Shown one piece after another: positions 194-8,862 of a stretch of 29,454 nucleotides of DNA; the stretch's first letter is position 1; each line of letters opens with the position of its first letter. This DNA comes from a virus. The stretch is taken from the IMG/VR virus record IMGVR_UViG_3300029448_007917, positions 1,409-30,862 of that record. The stretch is one strand, 5' to 3'. A model generated the notes under the pieces. That model saw only the letters and a program-made list of their open reading frames with translations, did not search any database and was not told the origin of the DNA. A program made the position numbers and the translations under genes.

Positions 194-568
194 ATGAAAC
201 TGGATGTCGAAGAAATTAAACAAAATTACCCATTTCTCTCACTTGTACAAGTAGGGAAAATAGAACAAGTTGGCATCATTCAAAATGCTGATCTCAAAGT
301 TTTAAGCATTTACAGCCTAGATGCTGTTCCAAAAACTATGATTGAAGATTTCTTACAGCATGGACAAACTTGGTGGTGGGAATCAAATAGAAAACTGCCT
401 ATCAACATATTCATAGGAAAAGATTTTTACAAATTTAAAGATGCATTGAAAACGTTTTCGGCAAAAGATTGTACAGTGCTTTTTGGTCCTATAACACGAT
501 TAACAGATCTTACCAAAGACAAACGTATCAGACGCAAAACTATTCAACTAGTTCGAAGAGTCAAGTAA
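194..568 (+). CDS. Hypothetical protein, 124 residues
   Basis: I do not recognise this family. The protein is soluble and mixed alpha/beta, with a WWWES segment near residue 60 and a basic C-terminal tail (DKRIRRKTIQLVRRVK) that could contact nucleic acid. It lies alone on the plus strand, divergent from the partial gene at the left edge, and its last 21 bases overlap the end of the DnaE-like gene on the other strand. ATG at 194 is the first start after a stop. I see no strong Shine-Dalgarno sequence or promoter in the 66 bp upstream. Confidence 0.65.
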   Translation: MKLDVEEIKQNYPFLSLVQVGKIEQVGIIQNADLKVLSIYSLDAVPKTMIEDFLQHGQTWWWESNRKLPINIFIGKDFYKFKDALKTFSAKDCTVLFGPITRLTDLTKDKRIRRKTIQLVRRVK

Positions 569-1111
569 ATTCATATTAACTATTACAGCACCAGCATAAC
601 CAAAAGCATGTGCCTTCTTAAAAAAGTATCGGTCATCTTTTGGCTTTACCCAAACTTCTTCTAATATCTCCGGCCAAGTTTTTTCTATCAAATAATACTT
701 GGCAGGCCGTATCACTGCTAGTGTTGCCGCTAGTTGTTCTAAGTTGGCAGGCATAAGTTTAGATACTACATTATGGTGTCCGTTAAGATGAAACAGTTGA
801 TCGACAAACTCTTTGTCATCAAGCCTGTGCCATGGAGGTTCACGATCAAACATTTCTTGTAAGTGTTCACGTGATTTAATTTGTGAATACAAGTTTACAT
901 TCAACACGTCAATTTTAAAGTATCCTAATTGATCCATAACTTTATAATCAATTGAACATTGTTCTGTGTTTGGAATGCGTGGTGCTTCTGTAAAATACAC
1001 GCCGGTGTTGTGTGGCTTAGTGCCTTTGTCGTCAATGATGGTGGCTCTTGTGTGCTTCACATGTTTCAGCAAGTCATTTCTGTCTGCAACATCGATATCT
1101 ATATCAGGCAT
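548..1111 (-). CDS. Miniature DnaE-like (C-family) DNA polymerase palm protein
   Basis: The 187-residue product keeps the signature blocks of bacterial DNA polymerase III alpha in order. PDIDIDV (residues 2-8) matches the PDFDIDF palm motif, with D5 and D7 as the metal-binding pair. HNTGV (34-38) resembles the H-A-G-V block. KIDVLN (66-71) matches KFDFLG with the third acidic residue at D68. HLNGHHNVVSKLMPANLEQL (108-127) followed by IRP matches the FQLES...RPG region. FFKKAHAFGYA (163-173) matches FNKSHAxAY. True DnaE is about 1100 residues; the PHP domain, much of the thumb and finger regions and the C-terminal parts are missing. I chose ATG 1111 because a perfect promoter places +1 there; the frame is open further upstream to 1183. 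Activity is uncertain: it may be a reduced polymerase, a decoy or a DNA-binding relic. Confidence 0.7.
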   Translation of the reverse strand: MPDIDIDVADRNDLLKHVKHTRATIIDDKGTKPHNTGVYFTEAPRIPNTEQCSIDYKVMDQLGYFKIDVLNVNLYSQIKSREHLQEMFDREPPWHRLDDKEFVDQLFHLNGHHNVVSKLMPANLEQLAATLAVIRPAKYYLIEKTWPEILEEVWVKPKDDRYFFKKAHAFGYAGAVIVNMNLLDSSN

Positions 1112-1117
1112 AGTAGT

Positions 1118-1146
1118 ATTATAAATTGATATGTTGGTTATGTCAA
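1118..1146 (-). promoter_or_regulatory. Sigma-70 promoter for the DnaE-like gene (TTGACA-17-TATAAT)
   Basis: On the minus strand TTGACA lies at 1146-1141 and TATAAT at 1123-1118 with a 17-bp spacer, both hexamers perfect. Exactly six bases separate the -10 box from ATG 1111, so the expected +1 is the A of the start codon and the mRNA would be leaderless. The TGA stop of the preceding gene (1145-1143) sits inside the -35 box. Confidence 0.8.
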
Positions 1147-3973: not shown

Positions 3974-4121
3974 ACACAGCACTGCAATATGGACACACCA
4001 TTTCAGTCTCCTCCTCTTTCATTGTTAGATATATTAATGGATGGCCATCAGCAACACTCATGCCTTCTACAATCAAGCCATCGCAGGTAAACGTTCTAGA
4101 TTTAGTTTTTAGTCTTATCAT
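3954..4121 (-). CDS. zf-CHCC (NDUFS6-like) zinc-finger mini-protein, 55 residues
   Basis: ATG 4121 overlaps the TGA of the gene before it (ATGA) and the frame runs to TGA 3956-3954. The 55-residue product has the zf-CHCC pattern: C13 in FTCDG, H27 in DGHPLIYL, then C43 and C46 in VCPYCSAVYEY, four ligands for one zinc. This is the small domain related to the complex I accessory subunit NDUFS6 and widespread in alphaproteobacteria. Its direct overlap with sufE suggests a joint role in Fe-S or respiratory maturation; that is inference. It is easily missed because of its length. Confidence 0.8.
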   Translation of the reverse strand: MIRLKTKSRTFTCDGLIVEGMSVADGHPLIYLTMKEEETEMVCPYCSAVYEYDDR

Positions 4122-4792
4122 TCTATGCCTGCTTCTTTTAATGTGTTTGTTACAAAGTCTTTATCTTCATCACGTTTTTTAAATGTGCGTTTCCAATATT
4201 CTGGATCTATAATTTCGTATATAATTTTTATTTGATCGTCATGCATGATAGTCAACATGTCTTTTCCTGTTTCACAATTCAGCAACACCCATGGAGATAT
4301 TCTACCATTTGCAATCATCTGTGTCACTCGATTCAAATTTACATATTTGAAAAAGTCTTCCAATCTTGCATCTTCTTCTCCTGCCCATTCACCCATTGCA
4401 ATAATTGTTCTATTCAGTGCCTGTGGAACTGCTTCTGTTCTTACTAATTGTTTTATATACGAATCCACTGTGCCTTGCTTTGCCCATGAGTCAACTCTAA
4501 TCTTTGATGTACACAGCCAGTCAATGAATGCTCCTATTTCTACAGGGGTGTTGGCTGTAATAAAATCTGCTGTCTTTATGAATGCGTTATAATATTGAGA
4601 TTGTGCAAAGTCTGTAAATTGTTTTGATTTTTGGTTTGCAAAGTTTATTTCATAAAATCTACGAAAGATTTCAAATGCTAACACATGGACTTTGTTGTCC
4701 TTTTGACTCCAACGTCTCTTTGGTTCACACATATGCACATCCATTGTTTTTTGTCGTGCGAACGATTTGTTGCAATATTCACAAGTTGGCAT
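4118..4792 (-). CDS. Zinc-finger-containing hypothetical phage protein, 224 residues
   Basis: The N-terminus holds a C2HC-type zinc-finger pattern: C4 and C7, then H20 and C22, followed by the basic stretch EPKRRW. The remaining 200 residues are mainly helical, without a catalytic motif I recognise. Proteins with this layout occur in marine T4-like phages without known function; nucleic-acid binding is a reasonable guess. It is translationally coupled to the zf-CHCC gene and follows the small membrane-protein gene by 5 bp. Confidence 0.65.
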   Translation of the reverse strand: MPTCEYCNKSFARQKTMDVHMCEPKRRWSQKDNKVHVLAFEIFRRFYEINFANQKSKQFTDFAQSQYYNAFIKTADFITANTPVEIGAFIDWLCTSKIRVDSWAKQGTVDSYIKQLVRTEAVPQALNRTIIAMGEWAGEEDARLEDFFKYVNLNRVTQMIANGRISPWVLLNCETGKDMLTIMHDDQIKIIYEIIDPEYWKRTFKKRDEDKDFVTNTLKEAGIE

Positions 4793-6234: not shown

Positions 6235-6262
6235 ATTATACAACAAATACCACAGTTGTCAA
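6235..6262 (-). promoter_or_regulatory. Sigma-70 promoter of the thyX-speD unit (TTGACA-16-TATAAT)
   Basis: The minus strand carries TTGACA at 6262-6257 and TATAAT at 6240-6235, 16 bp apart, both perfect. The leader of about 17 nt to ATG 6211 contains AAGGAG. It likely drives the contiguous genes from 6211 down to 1143, since no other promoter of this strength appears between them. Confidence 0.85.
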
Positions 6263-6263
6263 C

Positions 6264-6797
6264 TTAATATTGTACAAGATTACTAATGTCAGCAGTGCCA
6301 AACAATTCAATTTTGAATGTGTCATAATCAAACTGTTCCAACGTTGATGCGACATATTTTTGTATTGAACTTTGCCAAAAGCCAATGTCAGCATGATCAA
6401 CATCAATTACAAACTTAGAATTGTGTCCTAAGTAATTGTTTTTTGTGAGTATTTCTCCGTCTTCTAATATTGTTGGAAAAAGATATAATTCATTTTCTAA
6501 TGCTGAATCATTCAATATAATTCTGTTTATAGCAACTCCCTTGTCGTCCAAGATCATACCATTGTCTGCAACCTTTGTATCATTTGGTTGTTTGTCGTAA
6601 TGCTCTATTGTTAGTTTGTTTGGAAATAGTACGTGAGTGTTGATAACAATCTGTTGTAATCCTGGCTTTGACAGTTGTTCATCGTAGATTACTTTTTCAT
6701 CATCATATACTTTTATTTTTGGACCACCGTTGAATGCTTTTACATCTACGTCAATAACCATTTGTAATGGTGGATAATTATGAGTACTTTTGGTCAT
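6264..6797 (-). CDS. Beta-rich hypothetical protein, possibly carbohydrate-binding
   Basis: The 177-residue protein is dominated by short beta-type segments: VIDVDVKAFNGGPKIKVYDD near the N-terminus, LTIEHYDKQPNDT (about 63-75), a DDKGVAINRI stretch and a C-terminal FVIDVD. The layout recalls compact beta-sandwich glycan-binding domains in marine phage proteins, but I see no decisive signature. It overlaps the radical SAM gene by 20 bp and is last in its unit, so it may assist that enzyme or bind its product. Its TAA stop lies one base from the next unit's -35 box. Confidence 0.55.
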   Translation of the reverse strand: MTKSTHNYPPLQMVIDVDVKAFNGGPKIKVYDDEKVIYDEQLSKPGLQQIVINTHVLFPNKLTIEHYDKQPNDTKVADNGMILDDKGVAINRIILNDSALENELYLFPTILEDGEILTKNNYLGHNSKFVIDVDHADIGFWQSSIQKYVASTLEQFDYDTFKIELFGTADISNLVQY

Positions 6798-8268
6798 TTA
6801 TACTTGATGTGTTTAGATCAACCACTGCTTGTGATTGTTGTTTTTGATTTACGTTCCATAAGAAGTGTAATAGTTTTAAATGGTTGTCGTCACTACCAAT
6901 TGTGTATCCCATCTTCTTAAGTTCTTCTCCTGCAATAATTCTTCTCTTAATTCTTTCTTTGAAAGTTAGAGTTGGATTCTTATCATACACCCAAAAATTT
7001 TCACCATTATTCAATTCTAATTCATGCGTGTGTTCTGTTGCTAACGGAGTACCTGGTAGTACTCCGAGTGTTGAACCTAAGTACACTTTCGATACTAGGT
7101 TATCATATTTTTTATATCGTTTGAACATCCTAAGTGTTTCTAAAAAGTCTTCGTGTGTTTCTGTTGGATACCCTATGATCATTAAAAATTGTAACGTGAC
7201 TCCGTTTTTGTGTGCTTCATGTACAAACTCATCTAAGTCTTGATTTGAAAATTGTTTCTTCATATGGTCTCTTACTCTTTCACTACCAGACTCAACACCA
7301 CTTGCTAAATCATCTGCACCAGACAATGCTGTAAGGCGCCAGTCTTCAGCAGTCATAGCCTTGATACCTCTGGTAATAATTTGTCCGTCCCAACTTATCT
7401 TGTTTTCTGCAGTTGAATTATATTCGGCCAATTTGGTTACAAAGTCTCTGTATGCTTTCATAGAGCCATTCACTAAACTATCTGTAAATGAAAAATGATA
7501 TATGCCATATCTTTCACTTTGTGAAATCATTTCATTTGCTATTGAGTCTCCGCTTCTAAAAACAAATCTCTGCCAATGATTGTGTATGTCGCAGAATGTA
7601 CATCTTCGAACACAACCTCTACTGCCAGTTATCATCAAGATTTTTTCTCTATACAATTCAAACTTGTAATCTGTGTAATCTGGAAATGCATTTGCATCCA
7701 TGTTGAGTTGTTGTTCCCATTCAAGATTGTCCACACCTTTGCCTTTGCCTTCAGTAAGGAGTTGTACTATTGCATTCTCGCCTTCAGATATTATGTAATG
7801 ATCGATCAAATTATTTCTTTTAAGTAGATTCACCCATTCATCATTTGAGCCTAAGCCTTGTGATAATAATCCTTGTCCGCCTAAAATAATTTGAATGTAG
7901 GGCGATCTTAATTTAAGTTTTTCACAAAACATTTTTGTAAAGTGTTGACATTGATAAGAAAACACACTGATTCCTATGTAGTTGAAATCATATGTGTCTA
8001 GCAGTTGATTAACAACTTCATCTACATATGCTTCTATGATTGTTAGGTTTTCAGAATCTATAACAGTGCCAAATGAAAAATAATTTTTCAGTAGGTTCCA
8101 CTTGTCAGTATCATCGTCTTTCATTCTTTGGAAATCGATATTAACATCATATGTATGTGCAGTAAATTGATGTTTCTCTAGTGCGGCCTTAAGAACTGCT
8201 GGAGCCTGTAAGGGCAGTAAGGTATCAGTATCTGGTACTGTGATTAATAAAACATCGCACTTTTTCAT
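6778..8268 (-). CDS. B12-binding-type radical SAM enzyme
   Basis: Radical SAM enzymes use a [4Fe-4S] cluster to cleave SAM and start radical chemistry. The cluster motif is GCVRRCTFC (C219, C223, C226). The first 200 residues have the Rossmann-like layout of cobalamin-binding domains (VLLITVPD; YIGISVFSYQCQHF; IILGGQG), although the classical DxHxxG is absent, as in many class B members. Later blocks DDLASGVESGSERV and LQFLMIIGYPTETHEDF fit the TIM barrel. Length (496) is normal for B12-binding methylase or oxidoreductase subfamilies. The substrate is unknown. A seven-iron ferredoxin gene is 8 bp upstream and could supply electrons. Confidence 0.85.
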   Translation of the reverse strand: MKKCDVLLITVPDTDTLLPLQAPAVLKAALEKHQFTAHTYDVNIDFQRMKDDDTDKWNLLKNYFSFGTVIDSENLTIIEAYVDEVVNQLLDTYDFNYIGISVFSYQCQHFTKMFCEKLKLRSPYIQIILGGQGLLSQGLGSNDEWVNLLKRNNLIDHYIISEGENAIVQLLTEGKGKGVDNLEWEQQLNMDANAFPDYTDYKFELYREKILMITGSRGCVRRCTFCDIHNHWQRFVFRSGDSIANEMISQSERYGIYHFSFTDSLVNGSMKAYRDFVTKLAEYNSTAENKISWDGQIITRGIKAMTAEDWRLTALSGADDLASGVESGSERVRDHMKKQFSNQDLDEFVHEAHKNGVTLQFLMIIGYPTETHEDFLETLRMFKRYKKYDNLVSKVYLGSTLGVLPGTPLATEHTHELELNNGENFWVYDKNPTLTFKERIKRRIIAGEELKKMGYTIGSDDNHLKLLHFLWNVNQKQQSQAVVDLNTSSINDQKYS

Positions 8269-8834: not shown

Positions 8835-8862
8835 ATTATACACTGGCGTGGTAAAATGTCAA
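8835..8862 (-). promoter_or_regulatory. Sigma-70 promoter of the fdxA-radical SAM unit (TTGACA-16-TATAAT)
   Basis: TTGACA at 8862-8857 and TATAAT at 8840-8835 on the minus strand, 16 bp apart, are both perfect. The TGA stop of the preceding gene (8861-8859) is part of the -35 box. An 8-bp palindrome, GTTATAAC (8832-8825), lies where transcription should begin, followed by a leader with AGGAGG. Confidence 0.85.

Follow-up and report, generated by a model that had tools for sequence, protein, structure and literature searches.

A predicted C-terminal half of a split minimal DNA polymerase III α in a marine phage, and the linkage of its relatives to a contiguous mini-DnaE

A 187-residue protein encoded on the minus strand of a 29,454-nucleotide stretch of viral DNA (hereafter the window) is identified by profile comparisons and a structure model as a C-family (DnaE/PolC) polymerase core. 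Its sequence places it in the split minimal DNA polymerase III α of group 2.2 jumbo phages, of which it would be the C-terminal component (PHROG 11778; half B). Together with the separately encoded N-terminal component (PHROG 11127; half A), half B probably constitutes a two-polypeptide minimal C-family nucleotidyltransferase serving as an auxiliary polymerase. The new observation is that in marine phages, including the nearest relatives of the window, half B is linked with a contiguous mini-DnaE. The source is an uncultured marine virus of bacteria, and its half B is 33–50% identical to that of most cultured members of the family.

The open reading frame of half B (MPDIDIDV...LLDSSN) runs from position 1111 down to 548. 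An earlier reading made from the letters alone (hereafter the sequence-only reading) had given the same interval and length, and its numbering of the catalytic aspartates as D5, D7 and D68 fits the minus-strand translation; a plus-strand reading of 548–1111 was rejected, as it contains stops throughout. The gene has its own σ70 consensus promoter (1118–1146, minus strand), whose TTGA shares bases with the stop codon of the gene upstream. This promoter, already described as perfect in the sequence-only reading, scores 12/12 against the TTGACA/TATAAT consensus with an N17 spacer and is kept in four relatives with ~80% DNA identity. Only 6 nt separate it from the ATG, so the half-B mRNA would have almost no leader, or none. 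Perfect TTGACA-N16–18-TATAAT sites occur three times in the window (1118–1146, 6235–6262 and 8835–8862, all on the minus strand), against 0.06 expected by chance. Comparison of half B in the window with its nearest relatives gave a dN/dS of 0.04–0.09, a rough ratio as dS is near saturation; half B is under purifying selection, in agreement with the earlier view that this is not a decaying gene.

Profile and fold comparisons were decisive for the family of half B, where single-sequence searches were blank or insignificant. Phmmer with the single sequence returned no significant match in the PDB, and the sole Pfam match, Rpb1 domain 6, was below threshold and was taken as chance. With hmmscan, residues 3–184 matched positions 8–192 of the 197-position profile of PHROG 11778, annotated as 'DNA polymerase' (E = 3.1e-55), and the PHROG 405 (DnaE) profile was matched at 7e-4. 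Profile–profile alignment by hhalign against DnaE and mini-DnaE gave an E value of 1.9e-6 and paired D68 with the third catalytic aspartate and K66 with the lysine preceding it. An AlphaFold model built from a 47-row alignment (pLDDT 93.1, pTM 0.81) had Taq and other C-family polymerases as its best Foldseek matches in the PDB, and its top 15 structural matches were all C-family polymerases, over the full length. VIA-align superposed the model on the Taq ternary complex with Z 10.1 (3.3 Å over 185 residues) and on E. coli DnaE 400–779 with Z 9.3, compared to Z 3.4 for the best row outside the C family. The model thus spans E. coli DnaE 400–779, Taq DnaE 461–836 and M. tuberculosis 419–807, and both the structural and the profile comparison with the DnaE palm, which had been suggested as a check, came out in favour of the C-family assignment. 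Half B is labelled 'putative membrane protein' in MT708547, MK773491, JN882285 and MT939487, an apparent misannotation.

Five DnaE blocks occur in half B in the correct order with all three catalytic aspartates, as the sequence-only reading had noticed and as hhalign, the structural alignment and the conservation of the triad now confirm. The DIDID motif (residues 3–7; 1091–1105, minus strand) corresponds to the E. coli 401–405 region, with D5 and D7 at the positions of the metal ligands D401 and D403. H34-x-x-G37 corresponds to KHAGG 510–514, and FKID at 65–68 to KFD 553–555; within the latter, K66-I-D68 (908–916, minus strand) places the lysine at K553 and the third catalytic aspartate at D555. 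IRP at 134–136 matches RP at 639, and KKAH at 165–168, which contains K166-A-H168 (608–616, minus strand), matches KSH 758–760. H168 is structurally aligned with H760, the steric gate of E. coli DnaE (PMC8485763). Nine residues (D3, D5, D7, H34, G37, P44, K66, D68 and L70) are identical in all 90 homologues, and R135, P136, K138, H168 and Y172 are present in 89 of the 90, the exception being one gapped row.

Between and beyond these blocks, much of DnaE is missing. The thumb is deleted (27 residues from D7 to H34, versus 108 in E. coli), and the fingers are cut by ~88–90 residues (33 from R135 to H168, versus 121), with loss of the dNTP-contacting segment (E. coli RRAMGK at 709). The PHP domain is absent, and the protein ends at the position matching E. 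coli residue 779, which leaves neither an OB nor a C-terminal domain. The GS motif also falls outside half B, whose chain starts at PDID and whose model aligns with E. coli DnaE no earlier than residue 400. The OB and C-terminal region of DnaE holds the clamp- and τ-binding sites. Half B might conceivably be a decoy of host DNA polymerase III that titrates the clamp, the clamp loader or the primer–template, as had been proposed from the sequence, given its resemblance to host DnaE and its own strong consensus promoter; it stops before the clamp- and τ-binding region, however, a search of half B for a QLxLF-like clamp-binding motif found none, its active-site residues do not vary, and in cultured phages half A is inherited along with it. 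The decoy proposal is weakened by these findings, and we consider it highly improbable.

The counterpart of half B was found in all seven reference phages that carry it: each has a second DnaE piece of ~170–180 aa with GRGS and a PF07733 match at positions ~16–98, and no full DnaE was found in any of the seven genomes. Across loci, half A measures ~160–185 aa and ends at or near ...EFLN/K, where half B begins (MPDIDID). It matches the DnaE profile with E = 2.5e-11, the alignment ending at FLN directly before PDID, and residues 60–161 of its model align to E. coli 276–393, M. tuberculosis 304–413 and Taq 293–455. On DnaE structures, the two halves therefore abut, with a gap of ~6 residues and zero overlap. 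GVGRGS is present in 160/160 half-A loci, and 144 of these have the same distance from the motif to the end. By tblastn, half A was found in 57 of 60 listed half-B phage records; the remaining three comprise Slicko01, which is positive by profile, its sister phage and one 110-kb record. RAS14 and CM1 have both halves, as do the marine contigs G003 and G005, and half A accompanies half B in practically every phage record checked. The halves lie 11–224 kb apart in phage records, and none were fused or adjacent among the loci and records checked. The sequence-only reading had taken the protein for a stripped C-family palm that could be a minimal polymerase; the stripped palm stands, but a stand-alone polymerase does not, as the GRGS half is a separate, accompanying gene. 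In RaK2, PA5oct and Atu_ph07 (L019, L017 and L018, respectively), inspection of translated open reading frames showed a small GroES-like ORF after half A, with a gene for an RFC-like clamp-loader ATPase next in order.

From this complementarity and co-occurrence, we infer that the halves associate physically and are catalytic. Half A would contribute the initial portion of the palm, whose GRGS holds the triphosphate of the incoming nucleotide, and half B would contribute the aspartate triad for the two metals, K66, the finger base and the steric-gate histidine; upon association, the two would form one Pol-β-like active site. Such an enzyme should be slow and non-processive, because it has no thumb, most of the fingers are missing and PHP, OB and clamp-binding parts are absent. 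Its most likely role is an auxiliary one beside the family B replicase, for example, extending primers over short distances or filling gaps at the primosome, or acting in repair; the primosome role is a tentative suggestion.

The same deletions can be read against DNA synthesis. Loss of the thumb and of ~88 residues of the fingers, including the RRAMGK segment, may make it impossible, and the triad might then serve another kind of nucleotidyl transfer. Half B, with half A, could accordingly be a non-polymerising descendant, either a nucleotide-, metal- or DNA-binding scaffold or a different nucleotidyltransferase, in phages that already have a family B replicase. Because the triad, K66 and the sugar-discriminating histidine of half B are kept along with GRGS in half A, not all of which a pure scaffold would need, we regard this as unlikely. 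A second objection to the split enzyme concerns the clade of the window, where half A was seen neither on the 31-kb fragment, which is part of a genome (best hmmsearch match E = 0.47, taken as chance), nor on any of the searched partial contigs that combine half B with mini-DnaE. It was also not detected on G004 (222 kb, with half B and a family B polymerase), in which a weak candidate was discarded as a chance match once translated.

A family B polymerase is encoded by all seven reference phages (7/7) and by the marine contigs G003–G005; a family A polymerase was found in 0/7 reference phages. The sequence-only reading had considered a C-family palm unexpected in such a phage. Iyer et al. 2021 had already described a minimal Pol III α that is specific to phages and occurs in group 2.2 jumbo phages alongside the family B polymerase; two genes far from each other encode its N-terminal, NTP-binding protein and its C-terminal, Mg2+/template-binding protein (PMC7824862). 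They suggested that it cooperates with the family B enzyme in the synthesis of one strand or in repair, and put it forward as a model for an ancestral bacterial replicase; active assembly of the two halves is a prediction in that work as well (PMC7824862). A literature search found no experimental study on half A or half B. The window protein agrees with that split enzyme (PHROG 11127/11778) in family by profile, neighbourhood, residues and usual occurrence beside a family B polymerase, but comes from an uncultured marine lineage whose closest relatives add a contiguous mini-DnaE by the primase–helicase cluster. Compared to DnaE/PolC and full-length phage DnaE (PHROG 405), half B has the same palm fold, triad, lysine before the third aspartate and steric-gate histidine, whereas PHP, thumb, full fingers, OB and the C-terminal domain are missing and the palm half with GRGS is encoded separately. 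Cyanobacterial DnaE is likewise made from two genes, its halves being rejoined by split inteins. The phage halves, unlike the cyanobacterial ones (mentioned in PMC3919608), lack the length for an intein, and their break falls directly before PDID.

Half B is embedded in a replication neighbourhood. Tail to tail with it lies a 124-aa gene of PHROG 11637 (194–568, plus strand), overlapping it by 21 bp at the 3′ end, and this convergent pair recurs in most half-B phages. The PHROG 11637 product was considered as the missing fingers or thumb, and its alignment contained no DnaE motif; it could represent an additional subunit. The next genes of the cluster in relatives encode a virion protein, a gp61-like primase and a gp41-like DnaB helicase, and half B is located beside primase, DnaB helicase and UvsW genes. 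The source record (31,272 bases) begins inside this cluster, its first base corresponding to position 10525 of the relative L131 (79% DNA identity). Elsewhere on the minus strand of the window, an S-adenosylmethionine decarboxylase-like gene (1420–1806) lies two genes upstream of half B, a PHROG 11058 protein (4118–4792) has, at its N terminus, a C2H2 zinc-finger-like motif that scores below the Pfam cut-off, and a 496-aa radical SAM protein, unusual in phage, has a weak B12-binding-like N-terminal match (6778–8268).

A contiguous, PHP-less mini-DnaE of 547–575 aa was found on 29 distinct marine contigs that also bear half B, all of them partial and up to 108 kb. The two genes lie 4.3–9.4 kb apart in nearly all cases, with a constant spacing of ~5.38 kb in the closest contigs; given this constancy and the number of contigs, mis-assembly was rejected as the source. 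Mini-DnaE is encoded beside the DnaB helicase gene (L131:5390-7081; L037:1435-3126; also in L122, L123 and L125). The L131 protein (563 aa), like other mini-DnaE proteins, differs from half B in being a single chain with complete palm and fingers, which contains the GS motif, the triad and thumb-region residues and has an additional region at the C terminus. A C-family core and a replication neighbourhood are shared by half B and mini-DnaE (L037, L122, L125 and LR756508). Mini-DnaE occurs with and without half B: the partial contig G023 and the 484-kb megaphage LR756508, whose mini-DnaE is a distant copy (38% identity), have it together with a family B polymerase and lack half B. On the half-B tree, the window belongs to a clade (support 100/99) in which 8/8 other members have mini-DnaE, so the window phage very probably carries it too, ~3.4 kb beyond the fragment. 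A family B polymerase was not seen on the partial contigs of this clade.

This linkage raises the alternative that, in the marine clade, half A has been lost and half B partners mini-DnaE as an accessory or exchange subunit. Close spacing and the uniform presence of mini-DnaE in the clade are consistent with such a partnership, as is the mutual exclusion in the contigs searched, where half A was on none of those with mini-DnaE and half B, and mini-DnaE was on 0/43 half-A contigs. Half A is mostly missing, however, from half-B partial contigs without mini-DnaE as well, so its absence carries little weight, all the more as the contigs are partial and the halves lie far apart in reference phages; the statement that mini-DnaE clades lack half A was therefore dropped. 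The mini-DnaE label also needs 13 changes on the half-B tree, and the half-A-bearing G005 (L118) pairs with the mini-DnaE-bearing L187 among mini-DnaE rows, which argues that mini-DnaE is easily gained or lost while half B persists. Having its own triad, GS motif and fingers, mini-DnaE does not need half B for its chemistry. We accordingly judge the partnership unlikely, and it is more doubtful still that the marine half-palm has left half A to serve mini-DnaE in a C-family replisome that perhaps even replaces the family B polymerase. On our reading of the sequences, mini-DnaE would be a second C-family polymerase, gained and lost independently, and probably no replacement for half A.

Should half A and half B prove active together, the split polymerase would rank as an exceptionally small C-family core among natural ones and would reveal how much of DnaE is dispensable for catalysis. 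Another question is why a second, two-piece polymerase of bacterial type is kept by phages that already have a full family B replicase. Given its abundance, with at least 595 contigs in viral metagenomes, and the linkage with mini-DnaE, this question is testable in cultured phages such as RaK2, 121Q or PA5oct.
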